This document shows, in pieces, positions 5,293-22,049 of a stretch of DNA of 32,963 nt (position 1 is its first letter; each line of letters starts with the position of its first letter). The notes beneath the pieces are model-generated. The model saw nothing but the letters and a program-made list of their open reading frames with translations. It was not told the origin of the DNA and ran no database searches. This DNA is from Candidatus Solincola sediminis (GTDB taxonomy: Bacteria > Actinomycetota > Geothermincolia > Geothermincolales > RBG-13-55-18), in assembly GCA_001767605.1 (NCBI GenBank), contig MELM01000045.1:28825-61787 (forward strand), in the 5' to 3' direction. The position numbers were made by a program, and so were the translations under genes.

Positions 5293-5862
5293 TTATTGTT
5301 TGCGGCGGGCGCGGCGGATTCTGCTCCTTCTATCGACCCAGAGAATGGCGACCAACGCCAGCAGTATGACAACGATAAGCAGCTTGCCGTATTGAAACGG
5401 GTGGGGTATAGGGTGGCCCGCTTCCAGCAGTTCGATAGATGTCGCCCTGATATCCGTATCGCCTTCATGTTCGGGATCGGCCCTATTGAAGATGCCTGTT
5501 ACCCGCACCGTGTCGCCCTTGTTTTTGTACCCTCCCAGGATATGTATCTGCCGCAATTCTCCGGCCGGCGCCCATACCCCTATGCCCCAGTTAGAGTAGC
5601 CGGCGAAATCCCCGCCCTCCTCCAGGCTCTTTACGCTGTAGGCATCATCATTCACGGTCACCCAGCCGTAGTCACCTTGCACTAGAAGGTCGCCGACGGC
5701 TTCCCCGGTTATCACCACTTCCTGGCCGTCGTATTGCTCCATGTTCGCGACCAGCTCTTCCACGCTGACCTCATGAGCTGCAAGGGCGGAGCCGGACATC
5801 ATCAGGAAGGCCGCCGCAAGGCCCGCCAATACAAGCACTATCGAGGCAACTCGGCGGCTCAT
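5293..5862 (-). CDS. Membrane-anchored OB-fold-like extracytoplasmic protein
   Basis: ATG at 5862 with RBS GAGGAGG overlaps the trkH stop (ATGA). N-terminal signal/TM, 'YDGQEVVITGEAVGDLL...GWVTVND...VRVTGIF' OB-like pattern, C-terminal TM plus basic tail. Confidence 0.65.
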   Translation of the reverse strand: MSRRVASIVLVLAGLAAAFLMMSGSALAAHEVSVEELVANMEQYDGQEVVITGEAVGDLLVQGDYGWVTVNDDAYSVKSLEEGGDFAGYSNWGIGVWAPAGELRQIHILGGYKNKGDTVRVTGIFNRADPEHEGDTDIRATSIELLEAGHPIPHPFQYGKLLIVVILLALVAILWVDRRSRIRRARRKQ

Positions 5863-7382
5863 CGCTTTTTCCTCCTCGCGCCCCTGCCGCGTAAGATAGC
5901 GCCGCCGAAGCTGAATAGGGCTATCACCGAGATAAATTCCAGGCGGCCGGCCCACATCATGAATATGTAGTAGACTTTCATCAAGGCGGGCATCAGGGGG
6001 CCGGTCAACCCGGCCGAGAGGCCGGTATTGCTACCGGCTGATACGGAATCGAAGATGGCAACCGACGGATCGTAGCCATACATGATACCGATTACACCAC
6101 CCAGGGCATAGATCACGACATAGCAAACCAGCACGAACAGGACCCCTTTTACCAGCGCATCATCGAGCCATACATCATGCACATGATGAACTTTCTCCGC
6201 CACCACAGCCGACTCCGGAGAAGCGAGCCTCCTTATCTCCCCTCTTATGTACTTGAATACAATCCCCATGCGGAGCCCCTTGAATCCGCCGCCCGTCGAC
6301 GCGGCGCTGGCCCCTATGGCCATCACCAGTATCAGTGCCCACATCGCAATCAGCCCGAACTCGTTAACGAAGGAGATGGAAAATACGGTGCCGTTTCCCG
6401 TAGTCGTATGGGCTGAAGCCAGGTTGTACAGACCTTTGCTGAAAAACTCGCCAAAATTGGTAAATAGTCCTATTTTTCCGAATCCTAAGGAGAGCATGAC
6501 GGTACCGAGTAGCATGGTCGTTGTGAAAGAGCGGGTCTCGACGTTGCGGTATATCTCGCGCCTGTTGCCCGTCCATACTTCATAGTGCAGCACGAAATTG
6601 AAGGAACCTATGACGAAGATAACCAGGGTCAGAATTTGCACCCAGAAACTGTGGTAATAGAGGAGGTTAAGGCTCTGGGGGGCGAAGCCTCCGGTCGACC
6701 AGGCTCCCATGAAGAGCCAGACGGAATGAAGGCCGCCACGAGCTACGGGCATCCCCTCCTTCAGAAGCGCGAGCCAGATGAACAAGCTCCCCACGACCAG
6801 GTAGGTGAGGCTTATCATCCAGATGGCGCGTGCGGTATTAATCACGTTGGGGAGAAGCTTCTCCTCCTTGCCCTCGCTCGCATAGATTTTGAAAGCGCCG
6901 GCTGTCCCCGCGAAAAGGAAGGTGAGCGCGATGACAATAATTCCCTGTCCACCGGCATAGGTGAGCAGGTGCCTCCACATGTTGAGACCGTGGGATGCAT
7001 GGTCGAGGTCCTGCAAAAGGAACAGGCCGGTTGTCGTGTAACCGCTCATGAGATCGAAGCAGGCATCCAGAAACGACTTGAAATGCCCTGATAGAATGTG
7101 AGGGATGGCCCCGAAAATCATGGCAGCGAGCCAGCCGCCGGAAGCAACGATCAGGCCGTGAAGCCAGGTCAAGTCCTTCTTGACGTGACAGGTTATCTCC
7201 ATGAAGAGCCAGAAGGCCACGCAGGCGAGGATGCCGATCAGGAAGTCGAGAGCCGTATCCCATTCGGTCGAAAGTAGAGCCACGACCAGGGGGACGGTCA
7301 TAATCAAACCGACGCCGAGGATGACCCGACCTATGCCCCAACCTATAAGCTTTACGTCTTCGCGAGCCGGTCTGAGTATCAT
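5859..7382 (-). CDS. trkH: Potassium uptake protein TrkH/KtrB family
   Basis: 507-aa polytopic protein; 'SGYTTTGLFLLQDLD', 'SAHTTTGNGTVF', 'SAGSNTGLSAGL' selectivity-filter-like segments; flanked by trkA genes. Confidence 0.92.
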   Translation of the reverse strand: MILRPAREDVKLIGWGIGRVILGVGLIMTVPLVVALLSTEWDTALDFLIGILACVAFWLFMEITCHVKKDLTWLHGLIVASGGWLAAMIFGAIPHILSGHFKSFLDACFDLMSGYTTTGLFLLQDLDHASHGLNMWRHLLTYAGGQGIIVIALTFLFAGTAGAFKIYASEGKEEKLLPNVINTARAIWMISLTYLVVGSLFIWLALLKEGMPVARGGLHSVWLFMGAWSTGGFAPQSLNLLYYHSFWVQILTLVIFVIGSFNFVLHYEVWTGNRREIYRNVETRSFTTTMLLGTVMLSLGFGKIGLFTNFGEFFSKGLYNLASAHTTTGNGTVFSISFVNEFGLIAMWALILVMAIGASAASTGGGFKGLRMGIVFKYIRGEIRRLASPESAVVAEKVHHVHDVWLDDALVKGVLFVLVCYVVIYALGGVIGIMYGYDPSVAIFDSVSAGSNTGLSAGLTGPLMPALMKVYYIFMMWAGRLEFISVIALFSFGGAILRGRGARRKKR

Positions 7383-7537
7383 TTGACCATCAATATAATG
7401 AGGTACATGATCCCCAGTACCGCCACGGAAATAGCGCCGACAGCCGCCGATTCGATGACTATTCCCAGGGAATAATCAAGATAGTTGCGCCAGAGGCTCC
7501 GGCCCCTCTCCTTCTTCTCTTCCCGGAACGTAAACAT
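7379..7537 (-). CDS. Unannotated 52-aa single-TM protein between trkA and trkH
   Basis: My translation: MFTFREEKKERGRSLWRNYLDYSLGIVIESAAVGAISVAVLGIMYLIILMVK*. RBS AAGGAGCGAAG before ATG; stop overlaps trkH start (ATGA). Missing from the ORF track because it is short. Confidence 0.75.
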   Translation of the reverse strand: MFTFREEKKERGRSLWRNYLDYSLGIVIESAAVGAISVAVLGIMYLIILMVK

Positions 7538-7546
7538 CTTCGCTCC

Positions 7547-8215
7547 TTATTTTGAGGTCAGGATATCCTTCAACTTGTCTTCCTGCTCGACCGAAGTTAT
7601 GGCTATCACCGAATCGCAAGGCTCCAGGCTGTCGCCGCCATGCGGGACTATCGCCTCCTCACCCCTTATTACCGATACCAGCACACAACCCTTGGGCAGA
7701 CCCAAGTCCTTGATGGGAATACAACAGGCCTTGCTGCCCGCCTCCGGTATATCCAACTCGATTATCGCCAGCTTTCCCTTCTGCAAGGTATACAGGGTCA
7801 TGATATCGCCTAAGGTCGTTTCCCTCTCGACGAGTTCGCCGATTACAGTGGTGCTGGAGATGGCGTCGATTCCCATCAGGTTGAAGATGCGCTCGTTCTT
7901 GGGATTATTCACCCTGGCAACCGCTCGGGGAATATCGAAGGAGATTTTGGCAAGCTGGCAGGCTACCAGATTATCGTCGTCATCTCCGGTTACCGCCGCG
8001 AAAACATCCGCCCGTTCCACATGGGCTTCCTCCTGATAGCGCAAGTCACAGGCGTCGCCGTTTATAACCAGGGCATTGATGGAAGTCGAGATGCTTTCAC
8101 AGATCGCCGGGTTCTTTTCGATGATGGCCACCGCGTGACCCTTCTCCAGCAGGTTGCCAGCCAGGAAAGAACCTACTTTGCCTCCCCCACTGATTACTAT
8201 GTAAATATTCCTCAC
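7547..8215 (-). CDS. trkA: TrkA/RCK family potassium channel regulator
   Basis: Rossmann 'YIVISGGGKVGSFLAGNLLEKGHAVAIIEKN', 'AAVTGDDDDNLVACQLAK', 'RVNNPKNERIFNLMGID' and a C-terminal TrkA-C-like region; GTG start overlaps upstream stop (GTGA). Confidence 0.9.
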   Translation of the reverse strand: MRNIYIVISGGGKVGSFLAGNLLEKGHAVAIIEKNPAICESISTSINALVINGDACDLRYQEEAHVERADVFAAVTGDDDDNLVACQLAKISFDIPRAVARVNNPKNERIFNLMGIDAISSTTVIGELVERETTLGDIMTLYTLQKGKLAIIELDIPEAGSKACCIPIKDLGLPKGCVLVSVIRGEEAIVPHGGDSLEPCDSVIAITSVEQEDKLKDILTSK

Positions 8216-9567
8216 CTCCCGTTTCCGGAACGGCCCCTTGCGTATCGCTCGATCTTCTGCAGCCTGCCTGGAGCCGCAAGAGCGATAATCCGGTCGTCCT
8301 TTTGGAACCGTTCATCCCTCGAGGGAAAGACGAGCTTCCCGTCTCTTTCTAAATAACCCACTCTCATCCTGAGATTTTCCTCACCCCAGGCTACTTTTTT
8401 TCCAACCAGTTTCTCCGGACAAATGAAATCTACGAGGCTCCGCGTGTTGTTGCAGCAGGCCGCCAGGACTCTTGCTTTTGGCCTGAGGATCTTTTCCAAC
8501 ATTCCTCGCGTTACAAGCGCCGTGCCGCAGACATAGTCCATGCCCAAGGCCTCGAATGTTTCCGTTTTATCGGGATTATAGAGCCTGGCAATGACCTTTG
8601 GCACGCGGAAGATATGCTTCACCACCTCCGCTGTCATCAAGTTGGTGTTGTCGTAGTTGGTTACGGAGGCGAACATATCCGCTTCGTTTATTCCCGCTCG
8701 GTTCAGGGTTTCCTCATCGAAGGAATAACCGGCTATTGCCTCCCCGCTGAATGTCTTCGAGAGTCTGTGGAAGGAGGACTCGTCTTTATCTATGACAGTC
8801 ACGCCATATCCATCCTGCGATAGCATATCCGCCAGTTGGGCGCCGACCCTGCCGCAACCCGCGATTACAACCTTGGCTCCTTCGCTGACCTGGCTCGATA
8901 GCTGCTTATCTCCGGTATCCTTTACACCCCAGAAGAAAGATAGAATTCGTGTCGTTCCTTCCTTGACGGCCATCACCAATCTATCGCCGGGATTAAGCCG
9001 AGTATCATCATCCCATTCGATGTTCTTATTCCCACTGAAGAGGCTGAGCACTTTATGTTTGTTAATATCATGGACACTGGAAATCGCTCTGTCCCGCGAT
9101 GCGTTATCAACGGTGAGTTCAACGATTTCCACTCCCAATTCCGGATCTTCGTTTAGAACTATGAGATTTCCTTGCAGGAGCTTATCCATGATTCGTTCAG
9201 CGAGGAGGGTAGTTCCGCAAACATAGTCGATTCCCATTTTATGGAAGGTCTGTTTCTTATCCGGATTGTAGAGGCGGGCGATGACGGTAGGGACTTTAAA
9301 AATATTCGAAGCTATCTCGGCGGTCATCATGTTCGTGTTGTCGTAATTGGTTACGGCCGCCAGCGCATCCGCGGTTTCGATGCCCGCTTCCTTCAATAAT
9401 TCCTCATCAAATGCAACTCCCTGCATGGTGATGCCGTTGAAAGTTCCTCCAAGGCGATTGAACGAGTTGGGGTTTCTGTCAATAACGACTACATTATGTC
9501 CTTCGTACGCCAGAAACTGGGCAAGATGGGCGCCGACCCTTCCACAGCCCGTTATGATGATATGCAC
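8212..9567 (-). CDS. trkA: TrkA with two tandem RCK modules (451 aa)
   Basis: Both halves carry GCGRVGA.LA, VTNYDNTN.MTAE, IARLYNPDK and GxDYVCGTxL. Confidence 0.92.
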   Translation of the reverse strand: MHIIITGCGRVGAHLAQFLAYEGHNVVVIDRNPNSFNRLGGTFNGITMQGVAFDEELLKEAGIETADALAAVTNYDNTNMMTAEIASNIFKVPTVIARLYNPDKKQTFHKMGIDYVCGTTLLAERIMDKLLQGNLIVLNEDPELGVEIVELTVDNASRDRAISSVHDINKHKVLSLFSGNKNIEWDDDTRLNPGDRLVMAVKEGTTRILSFFWGVKDTGDKQLSSQVSEGAKVVIAGCGRVGAQLADMLSQDGYGVTVIDKDESSFHRLSKTFSGEAIAGYSFDEETLNRAGINEADMFASVTNYDNTNLMTAEVVKHIFRVPKVIARLYNPDKTETFEALGMDYVCGTALVTRGMLEKILRPKARVLAACCNNTRSLVDFICPEKLVGKKVAWGEENLRMRVGYLERDGKLVFPSRDERFQKDDRIIALAAPGRLQKIERYARGRSGNGR

Positions 9568-9585
9568 TCCTAGATTTCTCCTTAT

Positions 9586-9620
9586 GGTTCCAGAAGGGGG
9601 TCAGGTCCCTTTGTAGAACC
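9586..9620. repeat. Degenerate relative of the 33-bp palindrome
   Basis: ggttccagaagggggtcaggtccctttgtagaacc; imperfect arms, shared GTCAGG centre and CCTTTGT side. Confidence 0.6.
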
Positions 9621-9621
9621 C

Positions 9622-10281
9622 TTATTCCATCAGGGCGGAGAGCGGTGATTCGCTTCCCTTCTCCCTGATGATGATCAAGTTGTCATCGGCCCTGAGCTCA
9701 ATGTCGCCGGACGGGACGACGACCTCGTGTTCACGAAAAATAAGTACAAGGAGCAGTCCCGGCGGAAACTGCAGCTCCTTTATCTTGCGACCCACTACCT
9801 TCGAGCCTTCCGCAATCGCCAGCTCCACCATCTCCACGTTCTCTTCCTCGAAATCGAGCAGGCTGAGCAAGTGATGGTGGGGAAGGTGGTGCTCCACCAA
9901 CGAGTGGATCGTGGAGACATTACTGACCGTCGGCTTGATTCCCAGCATATCGAAGGTCGATTGATTTCTAGGGTCGTTCACCCTGGCTATAACATTGTGC
10001 ACCGCGTATTTGTCCCTGGCGAGCTGGCTTATGATGATATTATCCTCATCGTCCCCGGTCACAGCGATGACGTAATCAGACCTTGTGATTCCGGCTTTCT
10101 CCAGCACCCGGGTCTCGGTTCCGTCACCGAAGATGGCCGCGTAGCCGAATTCCCGGTCCAGGTCCTCGTACTTGTGGCGCTCGCTCTCGACCAGGGCCAC
10201 CTCGTAGCCATCTCCAATCATGGAACGGGCAAGATTGGTGCCGATCTTACCGCCACCGACTATGAGAACGAAGAGCCGCAT
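9622..10281 (-). CDS. trkA: TrkA/RCK family protein
   Basis: 'LFVLIVGGGKIGTNLARSMIGDGYEVALVESE', 'AVTGDDEDNIIISQLARDKY', 'ARVNDPRNQSTFDMLGIKPTV'; ATG 10281 or TTG 10284. Confidence 0.9.
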   Translation of the reverse strand: MRLFVLIVGGGKIGTNLARSMIGDGYEVALVESERHKYEDLDREFGYAAIFGDGTETRVLEKAGITRSDYVIAVTGDDEDNIIISQLARDKYAVHNVIARVNDPRNQSTFDMLGIKPTVSNVSTIHSLVEHHLPHHHLLSLLDFEEENVEMVELAIAEGSKVVGRKIKELQFPPGLLLVLIFREHEVVVPSGDIELRADDNLIIIREKGSESPLSALME

Positions 10282-10697
10282 CAAGATACCTCCAAGTCGC
10301 CTTCGCAGATCGCCTCATGCATGGCCTCTACCGTCAGCTTTACCGGGCATATAACGTCGAAGCCCCGCCCGGCATAGAAATCCGCCCGGTTGGGATCGAA
10401 AACCCGCACCACGACGCAGGGTACCTTGAATTGTTCACGGGCTATCTGCGCGACTACCAGATTGGTGTTGTCACCATCGGTTGCGACCAGGCAGATATCG
10501 CAATCTTCTATACCCGCCCGCTTCAGGATCTCGATATCCAGGCCGACTCCTTTGAGGAACCTTCCCTTGAAACCAAGCCCGAGGTTCTCCGAGGTCTCCT
10601 CCAGCTCGTCTATAACGTTCACGGTGTGCCCTTCCGCGGCATATCGCAGGGCGAGGCCCGAACCGACTCTGCCGCAACCTATGATCAGTATGTTCAT
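10281..10697 (-). CDS. TrkA-N-only protein (no TrkA-C domain)
   Basis: ~138 aa; 'NILIIGCGRVGSGLALRYAAEGHTVNVID', 'VATDGDNTNLVVAQIAR'; ends directly after the Rossmann domain. Confidence 0.85.
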   Translation of the reverse strand: MNILIIGCGRVGSGLALRYAAEGHTVNVIDELEETSENLGLGFKGRFLKGVGLDIEILKRAGIEDCDICLVATDGDNTNLVVAQIAREQFKVPCVVVRVFDPNRADFYAGRGFDVICPVKLTVEAMHEAICEGDLEVS

Positions 10698-10707
10698 CAC
10701 ACGCTCC

Positions 10708-11234: not shown

Positions 11235-12347
11235 TTACTCACCGCCCTCTTCACGCGGGTCCTCGCCTATTACATGCACATCAACCTCTTTCAGCTCCGA
11301 CATGATCCTGTAGAGTAGGGTATTGCGGCCACGGCTCAAGGGGTTTAGTGTTCGAGGCCTCCCCATAAAGATCTGGCTCACTTTCTTCTCCCTGGCGACA
11401 GCAATTATGCCGGATGCCGCATCGGGTGAGGACAGTTCTACAAAATCGGCCCCAAGAAGCTGAGACAGGTCGTGGAGTGATTTTATCCGCTCGCGCTCCT
11501 CTTCTGAATATTCTCCGTCGCCCTCACGCCTCCATGTCAAGGGCCTCTTTATATATGCAACTACGAGATCAGCATTGAGGCGCTTAGTCATCCTCCAGGC
11601 TCGGCGGATAAGGCGCTGGGCGTTGGTCTCCGGCCGCACGCATACCATGATCCTCTCGGCTGTCACCGGTGCCGCTAACTGTTCCTCCGAGCTTGCTATC
11701 TCCTCGACTTCGTCCGCGACTTCGCGCAGGGCCAGCTCCCTCAAGGCGGTGAGATTGGCCTTTTGAAAAAAGTTGCCAAGTGCCGCTTCCACCTTGCCCG
11801 GTGCGTATATTTTGCCGCCCTTCAGTCTCTCGATCAGTGCTTCCGGACTTATGTCTATCAGCCTCACTTCTTCAGCCCTTTCCAGTAAATAGTCCGGAAA
11901 GGTCTCACGTATCTTCACTCCGGTGAGTTCAAATACGAGGTCATTCAAGCTCTCGAGATGCTGGATATTTACGGTAGTCCAGACGCCTATTCCATGATCG
12001 AGAATGGTTTCGATATCCTGGTAGCGCTTGCGGTGGACCGACCCCGGTACGTTGGTATGGGCCATCTCATCTACCAGCGCTAACTGCGAATGGACGGCGA
12101 GCACGGCGTCCAGGTCCATCTCCTCGAAACTCGCGCCCCGATATTCCATATTTTTCCGCGGTATCACCGGGATATCGTCGATCATCCGTTCGGTATCGGC
12201 CCGGCCGTGACTCTCGATATATCCCACCCTGACATCCACACCGCTCTTCAATTGCTGTTGGGCTTCGGAAAGCATGGTATAGGTCTTACCGACTCCGGCG
12301 GCGGAGCCCAGGAATATGGTGAGCTTCCCCTTGGCATTATTTTCCAA
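11235..12347 (-). CDS. kdpD-like: KdpD N-terminal sensor region (KdpD domain plus USP-like domain) lacking TM and histidine kinase domains
   Basis: Walker A 'GSAAGVGKTYTML', 'DVRVGYIESHGRADTERMIDDIPVIPRKNMEYRGASFEEMDLDAVL', 'LVDEMAHTN', USP-like 'ERIMVCVRPETNAQRLIRRAWRMTKRLNADLVVAYIKRP'; ends at 370 aa. Confidence 0.9.
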   Translation of the reverse strand: MENNAKGKLTIFLGSAAGVGKTYTMLSEAQQQLKSGVDVRVGYIESHGRADTERMIDDIPVIPRKNMEYRGASFEEMDLDAVLAVHSQLALVDEMAHTNVPGSVHRKRYQDIETILDHGIGVWTTVNIQHLESLNDLVFELTGVKIRETFPDYLLERAEEVRLIDISPEALIERLKGGKIYAPGKVEAALGNFFQKANLTALRELALREVADEVEEIASSEEQLAAPVTAERIMVCVRPETNAQRLIRRAWRMTKRLNADLVVAYIKRPLTWRREGDGEYSEEERERIKSLHDLSQLLGADFVELSSPDAASGIIAVAREKKVSQIFMGRPRTLNPLSRGRNTLLYRIMSELKEVDVHVIGEDPREEGGE

Positions 12348-12350
12348 AAG

Positions 12351-12935
12351 CTACGTCCCCATGATTCTAAATGCTTCCAGGACGGTGTCAGCCGCTTGCT
12401 CAATGCTTATGGACGTCGTATTGATCACCAGATCATGCAGCAGCGGATCGTTCCAGTCCGCCTCGAAGAGATAATTGTGATAGGCGGTGCGCGCATAATC
12501 GGAATTTATGACCATGCGCCGCGCTTCATGCCCGCCGGCTTTCCCCTTCAGCTTGTATTGCTCCGCGATTCGTGGGATGCGCACCTCAAGTTCGGCCACG
12601 AGATGTACGCGGAATATCCTGGAATCGCCCTGCATTATGATATGCGCCCCCCTGCCAAGGATTACCACCCGGCCCTCACCAACAACTTCCCTTATCACAT
12701 GGCTCATTGAATCGATATACTTCTCCGACCTTTCCCTGAAGGTTATCCGGTCCTGCAGGCTCAAGCGCTGCTCGAAAACCCGTTCGATCTTTCTCTCGTC
12801 GGTGCCGCTCTTCCTGGCCGCCTCCGTGATTAATTCCTTACCCACCAGCCGCCATTCCAGCCGCTCTGCGACTATTTCCGCAATTCTGCGTCCCCCACTC
12901 CCCATCTGGCGCGAGATGGTTATCGCCGTCTTCAC
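12351..12935 (-). CDS. Cytidylate kinase-like family protein
   Basis: 'AITISRQMGSGGRRIAEIVAERLEWRLVGKELI'; GTG 12935 overlaps kdpC stop (GTGA) with AGGGGAGG upstream. Confidence 0.8.
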   Translation of the reverse strand: MKTAITISRQMGSGGRRIAEIVAERLEWRLVGKELITEAARKSGTDERKIERVFEQRLSLQDRITFRERSEKYIDSMSHVIREVVGEGRVVILGRGAHIIMQGDSRIFRVHLVAELEVRIPRIAEQYKLKGKAGGHEARRMVINSDYARTAYHNYLFEADWNDPLLHDLVINTTSISIEQAADTVLEAFRIMGT

Positions 12936-13507
12936 TGTCGGACCTCCCCTAGCATCTTCCAAATCTCTACATTCAATTCAAGCACATTGACCCTCGGTTC
13001 GCCGAAAACCCATAAGAAACGGCCTCTTTCGTACTTTGCGATTAAAGCCCTCAAGGCATCCTCCAAAATGCCGGTGCTCTCTGCGATCCTCGACACCTGC
13101 AGGTAAGCCGACCGTAATCCTATCTCGGGGTCGAGCCCGGAAGCCGATGCGGTTACCATTTCCGCCGGAACGTCTTCCGGCTTTATTCCAGGATTTTCCA
13201 GAAGGATCTGGTTGAGTCTCTCTTCAGCCCGGAAGACGAGCTCAGGATTGGAGGGTCCCAGGTTCGAGGCTCCACTCGCCATGGCATCGTACCCGCCCGC
13301 CGAGAGGCGGCCGTGAAAGTACTCAGGCGACGAGAACTCCTGCCCTATATTCCTCGCCCCAACGACCCGGCCATCCACCTCGATCATATCTCCGTCCGCC
13401 TTGGAGGGAGTCAGGCGGGCTATGCCTGAAAAAGCGAACGGATAAACGAGGCCGAGGAGCAGCACGGCCAGCATTATTATCTTCACTATTCGCTTGGCGT
13501 CGTCCAT
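12932..13507 (-). CDS. kdpC: Potassium-transporting ATPase subunit C
   Basis: 191 aa; 'GQEFSSPEYFHGRLSAGGYDAMASGASNLGPSNPEL', 'VPAEMVTASASGLDPEI'. Confidence 0.95.
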   Translation of the reverse strand: MDDAKRIVKIIMLAVLLLGLVYPFAFSGIARLTPSKADGDMIEVDGRVVGARNIGQEFSSPEYFHGRLSAGGYDAMASGASNLGPSNPELVFRAEERLNQILLENPGIKPEDVPAEMVTASASGLDPEIGLRSAYLQVSRIAESTGILEDALRALIAKYERGRFLWVFGEPRVNVLELNVEIWKMLGEVRQ

Positions 13508-13519
13508 CTCGGTCTCCTA

Positions 13520-15571
13520 TCAGAAGTGAAACAACCGCAGCAGCATATCTATCAGCTTTATCCCTATAAACGGGGCGATGAGGCCTCCGATTCCATATAT
13601 TAGAATATTTCGCCGCAGGATGGCCGATGCGCCCAGCGGCCTGTACTTGACCCCTTTCAAAGCCAGAGGCACCAGGGCAATGATTATGAGGGCATTGAAG
13701 ATGACGGCCGAGAGAATAGCGCTGTGATGGCTGTAGAGGCGCATGATGTTAAGCGATGCCAGACCCGGAATGTAGGCCATAAAGAGGGCCGGAATAATCG
13801 CGAAGTACTTCGACACGTCGTTGGCAATGCTGAAGGTGGTAAGGCTGCCCCTGGTTATCAGGAGTTGCTTCCCTATCTCCACCACTTCGATCAGCTTGGC
13901 CGGGTCGGAATCGAGGTCCACCATGTTACCGGCCTCCTTGGCCGCCTGCGTACCGCTGTTCATGGCCAGGCCGACATCGGCGATGGCGAGAGCAGGAGCG
14001 TCGTTGGTGCCGTCACCGGTCATAGCCACCAACTTGCCCTGCCCCTGTTCGTTGCGGATTAAGCCCATCTTATCCTCGGGTTTCGCCTCCGCTACGAAAT
14101 CATCCACCCCTGCCTCACCGGCTATGGTCTTCGCCGTAAAAGGATTGTCACCGGTAATCATCATGGTCTTGATACCCATGGCCCGCAAACGCTCGAAGCG
14201 CTCGCTGATACCCGGTTTTACGACGTCCTTCAACTCGACGAGGCCGATTATATCCCCGTCGCGGGCAACGGCCAGCGGCGTCGACCCCTGACTGGCTATG
14301 AACTGGACGGATTCCTCGTAATGAGAGGGAAGAACATGGCCGGCCGCGACTGCGTATTTGGCGATGGCGTCCGCCGCACCTTTGCGATAACTGTTATCCG
14401 CACAATCCAACCCGCTCATACGCGTCTCGGCAGTGAATTCGACTACGACGCAGTTCTCGGGCTTCGTGACCTCGATGCCGAGTTTTTTACCCAGGGTGAG
14501 TATCGATTGACCTTCGGGCGTGCCGTCACCAAACGAGGAAAGCATGGCCACCTCTCCTACTTCGTCCTCGTTGTGCCCTTCGAAGGGGCTGAACTCGTTG
14601 GCGAAACGGTTCCCGAAGGTTATGGTTCCCGTTTTGTCGAGAAGGAGGGTGTTGATATCACCTGCCGCCTCAACCGCGCGGCCCGACATCGCGAGCACGT
14701 TGTATTGAGTAAGGCGGTTGATGCCCGCGATACCTATCGCGGAGAGCAGGCCGCCGATAGTGGTGGGGATAAGGCACACCAGCAGGGCTACCAGCGAGGT
14801 GACGTCGGGACGGGCCTCGAGGTAGCCGCCCAAGGGGCTCAAGATGAAAACCACTACCAGGAATATTATGGTAAAAGCCACCAGCAGGATCGAGAGGGCG
14901 ATTTCGTTGGGGGTCTTCTGGCGCTGGGCGCCCTCGACAAGGCTTATCATCTTGTCCAGGAAGCTCTCTCCAGGATTGGCAGAGATTTTGATCTTAATCT
15001 GGTCGGAAAGCACCATTGTCCCGCCGGTAACCGAACTAAAATCGCCACCCGCCGCCCTTATCACCGGGGCCGACTCCCCGGTAATGGCCGATTCGTCCAC
15101 GCTGGCTATGCCTTCGATCACCTCGCCGTCCCCGGGAATCACATCGCCCGCTTCGGCTACTACAACCTGGCCTTTCCTCAACTCGCCCGCCGAGACCATC
15201 TTTATTTCACCGTTGTCTTGAAGCAGCTTGGCGGTCGTTTCCACCCGGGTTCGCCGCAGCGTCTCGGCCTGGGCCCTGCCCCGACCCTCGGCCACCGCTT
15301 CGGCGAAGTTGGCGAAAAGGACCGTGAACCACAACCAGAGGGATATGAGGGCGGCGAAAGCGACGCTTCCTTGCCCTCCCTCAACTCCGTTGATCGCGTA
15401 CCTGATAAAAAAATAGGTGGTTATGACAGCGCCGATTTCCACGACGAACATCACCGGATTACGGATAAGATTCATGGGATTGAGTTTCTTGAAGGAGTTG
15501 ATGACGGCCTCCTTTATAAGGGCCGCATCCATCAGCTTGCCCGCTTCGGCTTTGCCCTCGTTCCCTGCCAT
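13520..15571 (-). CDS. kdpB: Potassium-transporting ATPase subunit B
   Basis: P-type motifs '[11 protein letters not shown]', '[31 protein letters not shown]', '[18 protein letters not shown]'. Confidence 0.97.
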
Positions 15572-15592: not shown

Positions 15593-17287
15593 TTATCCGA
15601 ATAACGCGAAATGCTCGGCCAGGGGCCCCAGGGCCAGGACCGGGAAGAATGTGAGAGCCCCGATTATTATTATGATTCCGATAAGTAAGCCCGCGAACAG
15701 CGGCGTATCGGTGCGGAAGGTCCCCTCCGATTCCGGTAAGATCTGTTTTTCGGCCAGCGAGCCCGCCACGGCCAGTATAGGGATGAAGATGGCGTAACGG
15801 CCTATCAGCATGGCCACTCCGGTAGTGACATTGAAATAGGCGGAAGAGACGGCCAATCCTCCGAAGGCACTGCCGTTATTGGCGGTTGCGGAGGTGAAAG
15901 CATAGGCCATTTCCGTTATGCCATGTGGCCCACTGTTTAGTATTGCGTTTCGGGCGGATGGTATGGCCAGGGATAGCGTTGTAAAGCCAAGGATGCACAA
16001 GGGATGGATGAGGAGGGCGATAACGCCCAATCTCACCTCGCGCGACTCTATCTTCTTGCCCGTGAACTCGGGAGTCCGCCCGACCATCAGGCCGGCCAGA
16101 AAAACCGTAAAGATTATATATATCAGAATATTTATGAGGCCGGCGCCGGAGGAGCCGAGAACGGTGTTGAGCATCATGCAGCCGATGAGGATCATGCCAC
16201 CTAATGGAGTATAACTGTCGTGCGAGCTGTTCACGCTTCCCGTGGCCGCGGATGTCGTGCTTGCGCCGAACAAAGCGGAATCATCTACACCGTAGCGTGT
16301 CTCCTTCCCCTCCATATTGCCCGCTGTCACATCGACGCCCGTCTCCTCCAGGATCGGGCTCGCCCTCGACTCGAACCACATCGTCAAGCCGGCGAAGATT
16401 ATGAATAAAAGAACTATGGCCGCGAAAATAACCCAGCCCTGCCGGCGATTCTGCAGGTAGAGGCCGAGGACATATATCATGGAGGCCGGGACAAGCAGCA
16501 TCAATAATATGAGGATGATATTGCTAACCGGGCTGGGGTTCTCGTAGGGATGGGCGGAGTTGGCATTAAAGAAGCCGCCGCCGTTATTCCCGATGTGTTT
16601 GATCGCCTCCAATGTCGCTACAGGCCCCCTCGCTATCTCCTGCTGCTCACCCTCGAGTGTTAGGACCCGGGCCGGGCCCTTCAGGGTTTGAGGAACCCCG
16701 AGTGGAATGAGGACTAGGGTAAAAAGCAGCGCCAGGGGAAGGAGTATACGCAGGATAGCCCGGATGAAATCGGCGTAGAAATTACCCAGGAAGGGATTTG
16801 CCCGCCTCGAGAGCCCTCGCATGAATGCTATTGCCATGACAATGCCGGAAGCGACCGAAGTGAACATACAAGTGGTTATGACTATCATCTGGGAAAGATT
16901 GGAAGCCTGCGTTTCCCCGGCATAGGCCTGCCAGTTGGTATTGGTCCCGAAGCTCACCGCCGAGTTGAAGGCCAGATCGGGGCGCATGCCCGGCGCTTGT
17001 GCCGGGTTAAGTGGCAAATGCCCCTGCAGCCTGAATATCAGGTAGGCGAAGAAAATGATGGCGAAGTCGAGGGCGATCATACGCAGAATGTAGCCGGTCC
17101 ACTTGTATTCCTTATCTTTGTCGATCGACAGGAAGCGGAAGATAAACCGCTCCACCGGTCCGAGTATGGGATCGAGGAAGGTGTGCTCACCCTCGAAAAC
17201 ATGAAAAATGTAAGTCCCGAGCGGTTTGATCATGAGGCCGATGATGACGGCCACGATTGCGATTTCGGCCCAGCCTCTGTAAGTCAT
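15593..17287 (-). CDS. kdpA: Potassium-transporting ATPase subunit A
   Basis: 'AVSFGTNTNWQAYAGE', 'HIGNNGGGFFNANSAHPYENPSP', 'SATANNGSAF'. Confidence 0.97.
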   Translation of the reverse strand: MTYRGWAEIAIVAVIIGLMIKPLGTYIFHVFEGEHTFLDPILGPVERFIFRFLSIDKDKEYKWTGYILRMIALDFAIIFFAYLIFRLQGHLPLNPAQAPGMRPDLAFNSAVSFGTNTNWQAYAGETQASNLSQMIVITTCMFTSVASGIVMAIAFMRGLSRRANPFLGNFYADFIRAILRILLPLALLFTLVLIPLGVPQTLKGPARVLTLEGEQQEIARGPVATLEAIKHIGNNGGGFFNANSAHPYENPSPVSNIILILLMLLVPASMIYVLGLYLQNRRQGWVIFAAIVLLFIIFAGLTMWFESRASPILEETGVDVTAGNMEGKETRYGVDDSALFGASTTSAATGSVNSSHDSYTPLGGMILIGCMMLNTVLGSSGAGLINILIYIIFTVFLAGLMVGRTPEFTGKKIESREVRLGVIALLIHPLCILGFTTLSLAIPSARNAILNSGPHGITEMAYAFTSATANNGSAFGGLAVSSAYFNVTTGVAMLIGRYAIFIPILAVAGSLAEKQILPESEGTFRTDTPLFAGLLIGIIIIIGALTFFPVLALGPLAEHFALFG

Positions 17288-17675: not shown

Positions 17676-20480
17676 ATGGATAGCAGCATTTTCACGACTT
17701 CCGAAAACGAGATATTCGATCTTCTCCATACCGACCAGGCGGGACTTACGCTTCAGGATGCAAAGAAGCGCCTGGAGGAAGTCGGCAGAAACGTGATCGA
17801 GAAAAAAGCCGGCGTTCCTCTCTGGCGCAAAATGATTACCAACTTCACACACTTTTTCGCGATCATGCTCTGGCTCGCCGCGGTACTCTCCTTCATAGGG
17901 GATATGCCTGAACTCGGCTATGCTTGCATTGCAGTCATAATCATTAACGGCATCTTCACTTTCTGGCAGGAGTTCAAAGCCGAGAAGGCTATCGAGAGCC
18001 TGCAGAAGATACTCCCCAAGAAAGCACGCGTGTTACGCGCGGGCGAGGAAATGGAAATAGACGCGGAAGAGCTCGTTCCGGGTGATCTTGTGGTCTTCGA
18101 AGCGGGCAACAGCATCAGCGCCGACACCCGGCTTATAGAATCGCGGGAGATGCGGGTAAATAATTCGGCTCTGACCGGTGAGTCGGAGCCGCAGATGAGA
18201 ATATCCGAGGCGCTGGGAGAAGAAAAAAGTTCCCTCGCCGACCTTCCCAATATGGTTTTCGCAGGAACCAGTGTCACCGCGGGAAGCGGAAGAGGCGTGG
18301 TCTATGCAACCGGAATGAATACTGAACTGGGAAGGATCGCTTACCTCACTCAAGAGGTAAAAGAGGACCTGAGCCCGCTGCAAAAGGAAATGGGAAAGGT
18401 TACCAAAATCCTGGGGGGTATTGCCACGGGCCTGGGTGTCCTCTTTTTCTGCCTCGGGGCTTTTGTTATGCATATGGGAAGGGCCAGCTCATTCATGTTC
18501 GCTATCGGAATTATCGTCGCAAATGTCCCGGAAGGCCTTCTGCCGACGGTGACCCTGGCGCTCGCCATGGGAACTCAACGAATGGCCAAGAGGCACGCCC
18601 TCATCAAAAAACTATCGTCCGTCGAGACGCTGGGGAGCACAACGGTTATCTGCACTGATAAGACCGGGACTTTGACCACCAACGAGATGACGGTTCGTGA
18701 GATATGGGTGGCCGACCGCGACGTAAATGTTGAGGGTGTCGGATACGAACCGAGCGGAGAATTCAGTATCGGGGGAAAGCCCCTGGACGAAGAGGACGAC
18801 CGCAGCCTTTCCCAATTGCTGCGCATCGCGAGTTTCTGCAACAATTCACGCCTGATCCAGCCTGGCGAAGGCGAGGATCAATGGAGCATTCTTGGCGATC
18901 CTACCGAGGCGGCCTTGCTCGTTTCCGCCTGGAAATTCAAATACGATTACGAGACGGAGCTGCGCCTGCATCCTCGTTATTACGAAATACCTTTCGATTC
19001 GAGACGCAAGCGAATGACGACCGTGCACAGCGTGGTTGTTGGGATGGAGGCCATGGTAAAAGGAGCTCCCATGGAAGTCCTCTCGTTATGCAACAAGTTA
19101 TGGACACCGCAGGGAGTACGGGATCTTACAGAGTCCGATCGCGGGAAAATCGCCGCCAAGAATGATGAGTACGCGCTGCAGGCTTTACGGGTCCTCGCTT
19201 TCGCCTATCGCGACGATATTCCCGTTCAGAAACATTATGAGGTTGAGGAAGTCGAGAGGGATCTGGTTTTCGTCGGCCTGGCCGGAATGCTCGATCCCCC
19301 CAGGCCTGAAGTCGCGAAAGCCATAGAAGAATGCCGCACGGCGGGCATTAAAGTGATCATGATCACCGGGGACTATGGAATGACGGCTGAATCGGTAGCC
19401 CGGCGGATCGGGCTCGTGCGGGGCAAATCGGTCCGGGTGGTCACGGGTCTCGACATAGATGAGATGAACGATGAGGAGTTGCTGGCCGCACTCGAAGAGC
19501 CGGAGGTTATTTTTGCGCGGGTTGCTCCCGAACACAAGATGCGGGTTGCACTCGTGTTGAAGAGCAGGGGAGAGATAGTGGCCATGACCGGAGACGGGGT
19601 AAACGATGCCCCCGCGCTCAAAGCGGCCGACATCGGTGTGGCCATGGGCATCACCGGGACCGACGTCGCCAAAGAGGCGGCCGAGATGATACTTACCGAC
19701 GATAATTTCGCCTCTATCGTTAGCGCAATCGAGGAAGGCCGGGCTGTCTATGCCAACCTGAGGCGCTTCGTCACTTACATTCTTGCGAGCAACATCCCCG
19801 AAATCCTGCCCTTCCTTATCTTCGTCATCGCCAAGGTACCTCTACCTCTCACTGTAATGCAGATCCTCGCAGTAGATCTTGGAACCGATCTTCTGCCCGC
19901 CCTCGCACTGGGAACCGAGAAGCCCGAACCCGGTCTGATGAAAAAACCACCAAGACCCCGAAGCGAGCGGCTACTAAACTTGCCGCTTTTCGGCAGGGCA
20001 TACGGCTACTTGGGGATGGTAGAAGGAATCTTGAGCCTGGCCGCCTTCTTTTTCGTGTACCTTATAAACGGCTGGCGCCCCTCGATGGGGGTCTCCGCCA
20101 TGGCCGCAAGCGGAAGCCTTTACGTTATGGCGACTACGGCCTGCCACCATACTATCGTCACAACTCAGATGGGAAACGGCTTCGCCTGCCGCACGGAGAG
20201 GGAATCCATCTTCAAGGTGGGATTCACAACCAATACTTTTTACCTCTGGGGCATTCTTTCTGAGATAATAATTCTGCTCATGTTCCTTTATGTGCCGCCC
20301 TTCCCGAGCTTCTTCGGCTTCGCGCCGGTGAATGGGTGGGTCTGGCTGTTTATGTTCGCCTGCGCCCCCGCTCCATTGGTGGCAGATGAGATCAGGAAGG
20401 CGATAGTCAGGCGCCGGCAAACGAGAACCATGCCCAAGGGAGATATCCATGGGGGATTATCCAAGGAAACGCCGGCCTGA
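17676..20480 (+). CDS. P-type cation-transporting ATPase, P2C-like (Na+/K+-ATPase alpha-like motifs)
   Basis: ATG 17676 after AGAGG. 'GIIVANVPEGLLPTVT', 'SSVETLGSTTVICTDKTGTLT', 'SNIPEILPFLIFVIAKVPLPL', 'AVDLGTDLLPALALGTEKPE'. Confidence 0.92.
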   Translation: MDSSIFTTSENEIFDLLHTDQAGLTLQDAKKRLEEVGRNVIEKKAGVPLWRKMITNFTHFFAIMLWLAAVLSFIGDMPELGYACIAVIIINGIFTFWQEFKAEKAIESLQKILPKKARVLRAGEEMEIDAEELVPGDLVVFEAGNSISADTRLIESREMRVNNSALTGESEPQMRISEALGEEKSSLADLPNMVFAGTSVTAGSGRGVVYATGMNTELGRIAYLTQEVKEDLSPLQKEMGKVTKILGGIATGLGVLFFCLGAFVMHMGRASSFMFAIGIIVANVPEGLLPTVTLALAMGTQRMAKRHALIKKLSSVETLGSTTVICTDKTGTLTTNEMTVREIWVADRDVNVEGVGYEPSGEFSIGGKPLDEEDDRSLSQLLRIASFCNNSRLIQPGEGEDQWSILGDPTEAALLVSAWKFKYDYETELRLHPRYYEIPFDSRRKRMTTVHSVVVGMEAMVKGAPMEVLSLCNKLWTPQGVRDLTESDRGKIAAKNDEYALQALRVLAFAYRDDIPVQKHYEVEEVERDLVFVGLAGMLDPPRPEVAKAIEECRTAGIKVIMITGDYGMTAESVARRIGLVRGKSVRVVTGLDIDEMNDEELLAALEEPEVIFARVAPEHKMRVALVLKSRGEIVAMTGDGVNDAPALKAADIGVAMGITGTDVAKEAAEMILTDDNFASIVSAIEEGRAVYANLRRFVTYILASNIPEILPFLIFVIAKVPLPLTVMQILAVDLGTDLLPALALGTEKPEPGLMKKPPRPRSERLLNLPLFGRAYGYLGMVEGILSLAAFFFVYLINGWRPSMGVSAMAASGSLYVMATTACHHTIVTTQMGNGFACRTERESIFKVGFTTNTFYLWGILSEIIILLMFLYVPPFPSFFGFAPVNGWVWLFMFACAPAPLVADEIRKAIVRRRQTRTMPKGDIHGGLSKETPA

Positions 20481-20490
20481 GGCCGTGATT

Positions 20491-20661
20491 CTTAGTACAG
20501 CGTTTTGTAAATACGGTCACGCACCGAGAGCGCCGGGGCGCCGCGCCGGCAAGGCGCGCGACTGAGGCATACTCTGCGAGTATGTCGCAGGGAGCGGAAC
20601 GAAGCTGGCGTGGATGCAGCGGCGGTCGAATGCGACCGTATTTATGAAATGCTGTACTTAG
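20491..20661. mobile_element. 171-bp MITE-like/REP-like non-coding element with 28-bp terminal inverted repeats
   Basis: CTTAGTACAGCGTTTTGTAAATACGGTC ... GACCGTATTTATGAAATGCTGTACTTAG, 24/28 complementary; internal CATACT-ctgcg-AGTATG hairpin and GC-rich inner region. Confidence 0.7.
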
Positions 20662-20702
20662 GGAAAGTTGGAGATGTTAAGCCGAACTAGGAGATGAGGT
20701 TT

Positions 20703-21353
20703 ATGCACGTCGTGATTATGGGGTGTGGAAGAGTGGGGTCCCGACTGGCAAGACGCCTCACTAAGCGAGGGCACAGCGTAGCCGTGATCGATAAGGACCC
20801 GAGAGCTTTTCATTTGTTGGATGTGGATTTCAAAGGGACCAAGGTCGAAGGGGTAGGGTTCGATGCCGATGTCCTGGAAAAAGCCGCCATAAAAAAAGCC
20901 GACGTCTTTCTGGCGGTCAGCAGTGGGGACAACTCGAATTTTGTTTCATGCAAGATCGCCAAGGACATCTATAGGGTACCGAAGGTACTGGCCCGAATCT
21001 ACGATCCGAGGCGGGCGCAGATCTATCGTCGTATGGGAATACCAACTGTGGCCCCGGTCGCCTGGGCGACCGCCAAAATATCGGATTTGATCTTCTTGAA
21101 GCAATCTTATTCCAGGGATACCTTCGGCAGCGGAGAGGTGGAACTCATCGAGTTCGAACTCCCGCCCAACCTTACCGGCCGGCTGGTCCGCGATTTTGAA
21201 GTGGCCGGAGAGATTCATATAGGTTCGATAGAGAGGGAAGGAGCCGCTTTCATCCCGGTGCCCGGCACTGCCCTCATTAAAAACGACTTGCTGAATGTTA
21301 TGGTTTTGAGATCGAGCATACCCAAGTTCAAAAAGATGTTCTTCATGGATTGA
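20703..21353 (+). CDS. trkA: TrkA/RCK family protein
   Basis: 'HVVIMGCGRVGSRLARRLTKRGHSVAVIDKD', 'AVSSGDNSNFVSCKIAKD'; alternative ATG at 20694. Confidence 0.9.
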   Translation: MHVVIMGCGRVGSRLARRLTKRGHSVAVIDKDPRAFHLLDVDFKGTKVEGVGFDADVLEKAAIKKADVFLAVSSGDNSNFVSCKIAKDIYRVPKVLARIYDPRRAQIYRRMGIPTVAPVAWATAKISDLIFLKQSYSRDTFGSGEVELIEFELPPNLTGRLVRDFEVAGEIHIGSIEREGAAFIPVPGTALIKNDLLNVMVLRSSIPKFKKMFFMD

Positions 21354-21371: not shown

Positions 21372-22049
21372 ATGAAAATATTGATAACCGGGGGAGGAAT
21401 AGTCGGATCCTTTCTTGCCAATGTTCTCTCCGACAAGAACGAAGTGACCCTGGTAGAAAAGGATCCCGAAAAGATCCACGCTCTTATAGAGCGAACCCAT
21501 GCCGTGAGGATCATCAACGAGGATGGCTGCGAACCCTGGGTCCTGGAGTTCGCCGGCGTGAAGGAAAGTGATATAGTGCTGGGCGTTACCGGCGACGATG
21601 AAGACAACCTCGTCATCTCTTACCTGTCCAAATTCGAATACGAAGTGCCCCGCATAATCGCCAGGGTGAACAATCCCAAGAATCGCTGGCTCTACCAGAA
21701 GGATTTCGGCGTGGATATCGAAGTCAGCGCCTCCGATATCATAGCGACCATAGTGGAGGAAGAGACGACCCTTGGCGAGGTCATAACGGTTATGAAACTG
21801 AAATCGGGCGATATAGGGCTTGTGGAGATTACCGTGCCCGAGGACAGCCGAGCCGTGAATCAAACATTATCGGATCTCGAATTGCCGGGAGAGACCCTGG
21901 TCGTGACTATCGTCCGTAATGACGCAATGAGAATTCCAACGGCAGATACGGTGCTGATAAAAGGTGACAGGGTCCTGGCGATGACCAGCTTAAAGAATAA
22001 AGAAGCCCTTGAGAACATCCTCGGCCACAGCACCGGTGGAAGTCGTTAA
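21372..22049 (+). CDS. trkA: TrkA/RCK family protein
   Basis: 'MKILITGGGIVGSFLANVLSDKNEVTLVEKD', 'GVTGDDEDNLVISYLSKFEY'; RBS GGAGG. Confidence 0.9.
   Translation: MKILITGGGIVGSFLANVLSDKNEVTLVEKDPEKIHALIERTHAVRIINEDGCEPWVLEFAGVKESDIVLGVTGDDEDNLVISYLSKFEYEVPRIIARVNNPKNRWLYQKDFGVDIEVSASDIIATIVEEETTLGEVITVMKLKSGDIGLVEITVPEDSRAVNQTLSDLELPGETLVVTIVRNDAMRIPTADTVLIKGDRVLAMTSLKNKEALENILGHSTGGSR

Follow-up and report, generated by a model that had tools for sequence, protein, structure and literature searches.

A bacterial P2C-type ATPase without a beta subunit and the conserved pair of RCK genes downstream of it

The window, that is, the whole stretch of 32,963 nucleotides that was analysed, comes from a 2.55-Mb genome of Candidatus Solincola sediminis in 63 contigs, which is 92% complete. 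At positions 17676–20480 of the forward strand it encodes the catalytic subunit of a P2C-type ATPase, here called the window pump. The reading frame of 934 amino acids is intact with no internal stops, and the motifs required of a P-type core (TGES, DKTGT, KGAP and GDGxND) are all present, with TGES at residue 167, DKTGT at 328, KGAP at 462 and GDGVND at 639. Two genes follow on the same strand, RCK1 (20694–21353, 219 amino acids, with a TrkA_N (RCK) domain) and RCK2 (21372–22049, 225 amino acids, with TrkA_N and TrkA_C). Both keep the GxGxxG motif, and the two trkA genes noted after the pump in the original prediction are confirmed. The pump and RCK1 are separated by an inverted-repeat stretch of 183 bp (20486–20668), whose 28-nt arms (20491–20518 and 20634–20661) are 86% complementary. 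It forms a strong predicted hairpin (z −6.4), occurs once within the window and had no counterpart in the other pump loci compared, among them that of the nearest relative (L017). Its appearance suggests either a small mobile element that was inserted here or a structured element.

On the other side, the pump diverges from kdpA (15593–17287), kdpB (13520–15571) and kdpC (12932–13507), all on the reverse strand. The position beside a divergent kdp operon was therefore described correctly in the original prediction, but it is a local feature that was not seen in relatives, and kdp was ruled out as a functional partner on the ground that it is not conserved beside the pump. No riboswitch was detected in the intergenic region between kdp and the pump, the window giving no Rfam matches. 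Codirectional with kdpABC is a gene for a KdpD-like protein lacking the kinase part (11235–12347, reverse strand; best model NF038185, below its cut-off), and a Usp gene adjoins it. Further away, at 5859–10700 of the reverse strand, a TrkH gene and, after it, several RCK genes in a row, one of them double, form a separate K+ system. The window thus combines genes of three K+ transporter types, Trk, Kdp and P2C.

The membrane motifs of the window pump are IGIIVANVPEGLL in M4, YILASNIPEILPF in M5 and LAVDLGTDLLPAL in M6. The corresponding motifs of pig alpha1, checked against PDB 3wgu, are IGIIVANVPEGLL, YTLTSNIPEITPF and LCIDLGTDMVPAI, while those of SERCA1a, checked against PDB 1iwo, are AVAAIPEGLP, YLISSNVGEVV and LWVNLVTDGLPA. 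Both the match to the Na,K-ATPase alpha motifs and the contrast with SERCA-type pumps at M4 and M6, as given in the original prediction, were right. The resemblance is not due to chance, as the match to Na,K-ATPase alpha1, the best relative of known structure, covers the whole protein with an E-value of 2e-166. Among the NCBIfam models, TIGR01106 (IIC) scores highest with 640.8 bits, followed by the PMR1-type (618.4) and SERCA-type (590.5) models, all three under their own cut-offs. Since the score lies below the cut-off of 946.1 bits for animal alpha subunits, the window pump counts as P2C only in a broad sense.

P2-type ATPases were gathered from Actinomycetota, from the phyla of the Caproiciproducens, Chloroflexi, Methanosarcinales and Jordarchaeia genomes and from named genome contigs, and were aligned with pig alpha1 and SERCA1a. 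A FastTree phylogeny of 217 rows gathers the P2C-like sequences into one clade, which a long internal branch sets apart; the pig pump lies in its archaeal part and the window pump in a bacterial part. A second tree of 63 rows was obtained by an IQ-TREE quick search after removing all ion-site columns. It again placed the window pump with pig Na,K-ATPase and the methanogen homologues, away from P2A (SH-aLRT 99), so the P2C grouping is not an artefact of shared motifs. The outcome that the original prediction had named against itself, placement within the P2A Ca2+-ATPases, was thus not obtained. Among the bacterial P2C lineages, the deep branching order is weakly resolved. P2C ancestry of the window pump is considered very probable.

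The AlphaFold model of the pump is of good quality (pLDDT 83.9). Foldseek searches with it gave the best E-value for Na,K-ATPase, while the TM-score was higher for SERCA (5ncq); ranking P2C against P2A by TM-score was dropped, as it is probably confounded by conformation. The model is uninformative on partners.

The closest named relatives are Actinomycetota, namely the isolate Ch49, whose pump is 79% identical, and Candidatus Geothermincola (71%). Within the family, two genomes (G000 and G007) carry the type of the window pump, with 79% identity to each other, and the others (G002–G005 and G008–G014) carry a type at 57–58%. The window pump type is nearer to members of other families of the class than to these same-family pumps, and such a split within one family suggests gene transfer or old paralogy.

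No beta-subunit-like gene had been noticed, and the profile search extended this result: in 19 genomes, the source genome among them, nothing matched PF00287 at E ≤ 1, so a beta subunit encoded elsewhere in the latter was ruled out by this profile. In addition, the SYGQ assembly motif is not among the common motifs at its place in the clade of the window pump.

The gene order downstream of the pump is conserved. The bacterial clade that contains the window pump comprises 74 pumps, and an RCK sequence lies directly downstream on the same strand in 67 of the 71 that could be assessed, typically as a pair. The same arrangement was found in none of 27 archaeal P2C pumps, none of 16 pumps of a second, actinobacterial and mixed P2C branch, and none of 74 P2A-type and other pumps. 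P2C pumping as such therefore does not depend on the pair, which is missing beside the archaeal and second-branch pumps. Of the four exceptions, L146 and L147 are tandem pump genes adjoining another pump gene that owns the pair, and the other two clade members (L033 and L234) have no pair nearby; five further P2C loci outside the 74 also carry one. The median distance between pump and RCK gene is 56 bp, and at some loci the two genes overlap. The unit was found in Actinomycetota, Bacillota (Caproiciproducens, Erysipelotrichaceae) and Chloroflexi/Chloroflexota, in one Desulfovibrionales genome and, among the genomes of the archaeal set, in at least one (L157). Distance matrices of pumps and RCK proteins were correlated (Mantel r of 0.60 and 0.77), with none of 2000 permutations reaching as high, which shows co-inheritance and not contact. 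The pump, RCK1 and RCK2 are thus a unit inherited together across phyla. No pump–RCK or RCK1–RCK2 fusions were found, the double-RCK proteins listed not being in pump-linked position. Clade-specific insertions were also considered as an RCK docking site, and were set aside as unconvincing, being short (around residues 400–402 and 517–521), together with a YG at 567–568.

Profile searches identified TrkA_N (PF02254) in RCK1 (E 7e-25) and RCK2 (E 1.5e-21), and TrkA_C in RCK2 (E 2.2e-14); RCK1 is long enough to hold a TrkA_C domain, yet gave no Pfam match. Among solved structures, T. maritima TM1088A/B and Vibrio TrkA come closest. In the RCK tree, RCK1 and RCK2 each have an ortholog clade of their own, and the TrkH-linked RCK proteins, including those at 7547–10284 of the window, fall outside both. 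The trkA neighbours named in the original prediction are the conserved part of the neighbourhood, and they are not of the TrkH-linked type. The only other members of the two clades are pairs elsewhere in Actinomycetota, several of them adjoining KimA-type K+ importers; this exclusivity is provisional, as it comes from a limited RCK comparison set. The six membrane proteins tested that adjoin those pairs are all APC-superfamily permeases (Pfam AA_permease_2), and one of them, compared with the PDB, matched the K+ transporter KimA with an E-value of 4e-146. The RCK pairs most closely related to the pump-linked ones (L269, L270 and L279–L282) adjoin KimA-like permeases. The presence of related pairs beside KimA-type permeases points to K+ import. 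Two TrkA proteins of M. tuberculosis, CeoB and CeoC, have been described as a Trk system (PMC8358298). Compared by description, outside the RCK tree, they are an example of the actinobacterial "Trk" systems consisting of two TrkA proteins only, which the KimA-side pairs may explain.

No TrkH/KtrB protein (PF02386) was found in 18 of the 57 genomes carrying the unit, and the identification of the pair as a Trk system was rejected for these genomes. Ten of them were checked for TrkA_N domains, and apart from the pump-linked pair they contained no full-length free-standing TrkA_N protein, the other matches being one 121-aa fragment (G061) and domains within longer proteins. Given the absence of TrkH/KtrB, the pair does not belong to a Trk or Ktr system in these genomes, where the transporter gene tied to it is the pump.

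These data can be read as follows. The window pump would spend ATP to import K+, with Na+ as the most likely counter-ion, and would operate without a beta subunit, while RCK1 and RCK2 would be a dedicated pair that binds nucleotides and gates the pump, as RCK rings gate Trk/Ktr channels. Taken as a whole, this reading of a K+-importing, probably Na+-exporting, beta-less ATPase gated by its own RCK pair is held with slightly better than even confidence. A role of the unit in K+ homeostasis is probable, while direct gating of the pump by the pair is proposed tentatively, at a little under even chances. Equally tentative is the more specific proposal that a heteromeric RCK1/RCK2 assembly binds the P2C pump and is switched by a nucleotide or second messenger, the pair being a portable regulator common to the ATPase and the KimA-type permeases. 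Several observations count against the preferred reading: the pair is missing beside archaeal and second-branch P2C pumps and near L033 and L234, no pump–RCK fusion was found, the 183-bp palindrome sits between the pump and RCK1, and closely related RCK pairs serve loci without a P2C pump.

The last of these also belongs to the main competing explanation, in which the three genes are merely co-regulated for K+ homeostasis and the pair gates a KimA-type permease or another K+ carrier without touching the pump. Related pairs do adjoin KimA-like permeases in genomes without an adjacent P2C gene, and no precedent for RCK gating of a P-type ATPase was found in the open-licence literature. However, mere co-regulation fits poorly with same-strand adjacency in 67 of 71 cases across phyla against 0 of 117 in the controls, and with the genomes lacking TrkH, as judged by TrkH/KtrB and TrkA_N searches, in which the pair lies beside the pump and nowhere else. 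This explanation is therefore regarded as rather unlikely, though it is the strongest of the alternatives.

Regarding the transported ions, the window pump has, in pig numbering, E327, Y771, A774, S775, N776, P778, E779, D804, G806, T807 and D808, as well as Q923, M924, N926, C930 and E954. The K+-site residues E327, S775, N776, E779, D804 and D808 are all identical to those of pig alpha1. In the third Na+ site, Y771, Q923 and E954 are kept and three positions are replaced (T774A, W924M and D926N). The term animal-type used in the original prediction holds for the K+ sites and for the P2C clade, but not for the degenerate site III, the score far below the alpha-subunit cut-off or the position in a bacterial branch. 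N926 was found in all 27 aligned archaeal P2C proteins and in the majority of the bacterial ones. The published statement that methanogen pumps conserve every residue of the Na+ and K+ sites (PMC10654040) therefore fails at D926 for the set studied here. With the acid of site III missing, the animal stoichiometry of 3Na+:2K+ is less likely than another one, such as 2:2.

Exchange of K+ for H+ rather than Na+, or with Na+ serving only partly, has to be weighed at this point. It would agree with the incomplete site III (D926N, W924M) and with the histidine found at S775 in other branches of the family, where the H,K-ATPase has its lysine (PMC9463140). Non-gastric H,K-ATPase becomes a Na/K pump when four residues are exchanged (PMC9463140), and the window pump has three of the four, Ser775, Pro778 and Cys930, the fourth, Trp924, being absent. 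These three residues favour Na+ over H+, and no basic residue is found at 775, so that H+/K+ exchange appears improbable for this protein. The window pump is best read from these residues as a putative Na+/K+ exchanger moving fewer than three Na+ per cycle. The earlier claim of a Na+ and/or K+ pump is kept in its general part, a monovalent-cation pump being the best reading given the P2C placement, whereas specificity for Na+ and K+ goes beyond the sequence and is a prediction.

Natural variation at these positions was observed in the family. Some pumps carry His at S775, usually Leu at N776, and Glu at D808, the changes co-varying (AHLxPE with DLGTE); the His775/Glu808 carriers are L035, L086, L117, L120b, L134, L141, L142, L144, L146b, L147–L149, L156, L204–L206, L224, L225 and L235. 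The variant appears in several places of the tree, with five changes, but several independent origins were not retained as a conclusion since the AU test did not exclude a single clade (p 0.089). The variant may have arisen naturally as a switch to the H+ type. Two loci, L146 (G074) and L147 (G030), have tandem pump genes, one of the Ser775 and one of the His775 type, with a common RCK pair. Four P2C-like proteins from the phylum of the Jordarchaeia genome (L187, L188, L189 and L198) have His775 with Ile at 807 or a related change, reading DLGID or DIGID where others have DLGTD, and no RCK pair was seen adjoining them where the flank was long enough. Beta-less bacterial P2C pumps thus vary naturally at S775, N776, D808 and D926, which offers a way to study Na+ versus H+ selectivity without engineered variants.

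That the protein is a P2A-type Ca2+ pump whose likeness to Na,K-ATPase arose by convergence in a few motifs is highly improbable. Full-length similarity to LMCA1 (E 7e-160) and SERCA (E 1e-141) is nearly as strong as that to alpha1, and the NCBIfam scores are close, but the tree without ion-site columns still puts the window pump in P2C. Moreover, the P2A hallmark, an Asn at pig D804 (N796 in SERCA) that is present in 81 of 82 P2A-like sequences, is replaced by Asp in the window pump, which also differs from them at P778, G806 and E954. Just as improbable is a pump running in reverse to make ATP from ion gradients, which has been speculated for methanogen P2C pumps (PMC10654040) and for which that speculation is the only argument; a K+-regulator pair suits regulated K+ import better, and no sequence feature favours reversal.

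Returning to the preferred reading of an RCK-gated K+ importer, the conserved K+-regulator pair indicates a likely job, K+ import, for such pumps, and two proteins to co-express with them. The function of the prokaryotic relatives of the animal sodium pump has been stated to be open (PMC10654040). If the pair gates the pump, this would be, to our knowledge, the first RCK-controlled P-type ATPase. A bacterial P2C-like ATPase is not new in itself, with 44 prokaryotic sequences reported (PMC9609216) and the archaeal ones discussed (PMC10654040), and the beta-less state is also known. In the open-licence literature searched, no paper tying RCK/TrkA proteins to a P2C ATPase was found, nor were the conserved pair, its distinct clades, its sharing with KimA-type loci or the TrkH-less genomes found described.

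Compared with known systems, the window pump shares with the animal Na+,K+-ATPase alpha subunit (TIGR01106; PDB 3wgu, 8jbk) the clade, the fold, the M4, M5 and M6 motifs, the K+-site residues, Q923 and E954, and differs in D926N, W924M and T774A, in having neither a beta subunit nor SYGQ, in scoring below the cut-off and in its link to RCK genes. Like the methanogen P2C pumps, it belongs to the P2C clade, carries N926 and is beta-less, whereas it lies in a separate bacterial branch, and none of the 27 archaeal pumps examined is followed by an RCK pair. The gastric and non-gastric H+,K+-ATPases are also P2C members that import K+, but they have Lys at 775, where the window pump has Ser and some of its relatives have His. 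RCK1 and RCK2 belong to the same RCK fold family as the TrkA/KtrA subunits of TrkH/KtrB channels, with the GxGxxG nucleotide motif, but they form their own ortholog clades, are not adjacent to TrkH and occur also in genomes lacking TrkH/KtrB. Finally, the KimA-side pairs of other Actinomycetota fall in the same RCK1 and RCK2 clades, although their neighbour is an APC-superfamily permease, usually divergent, and not an ATPase.
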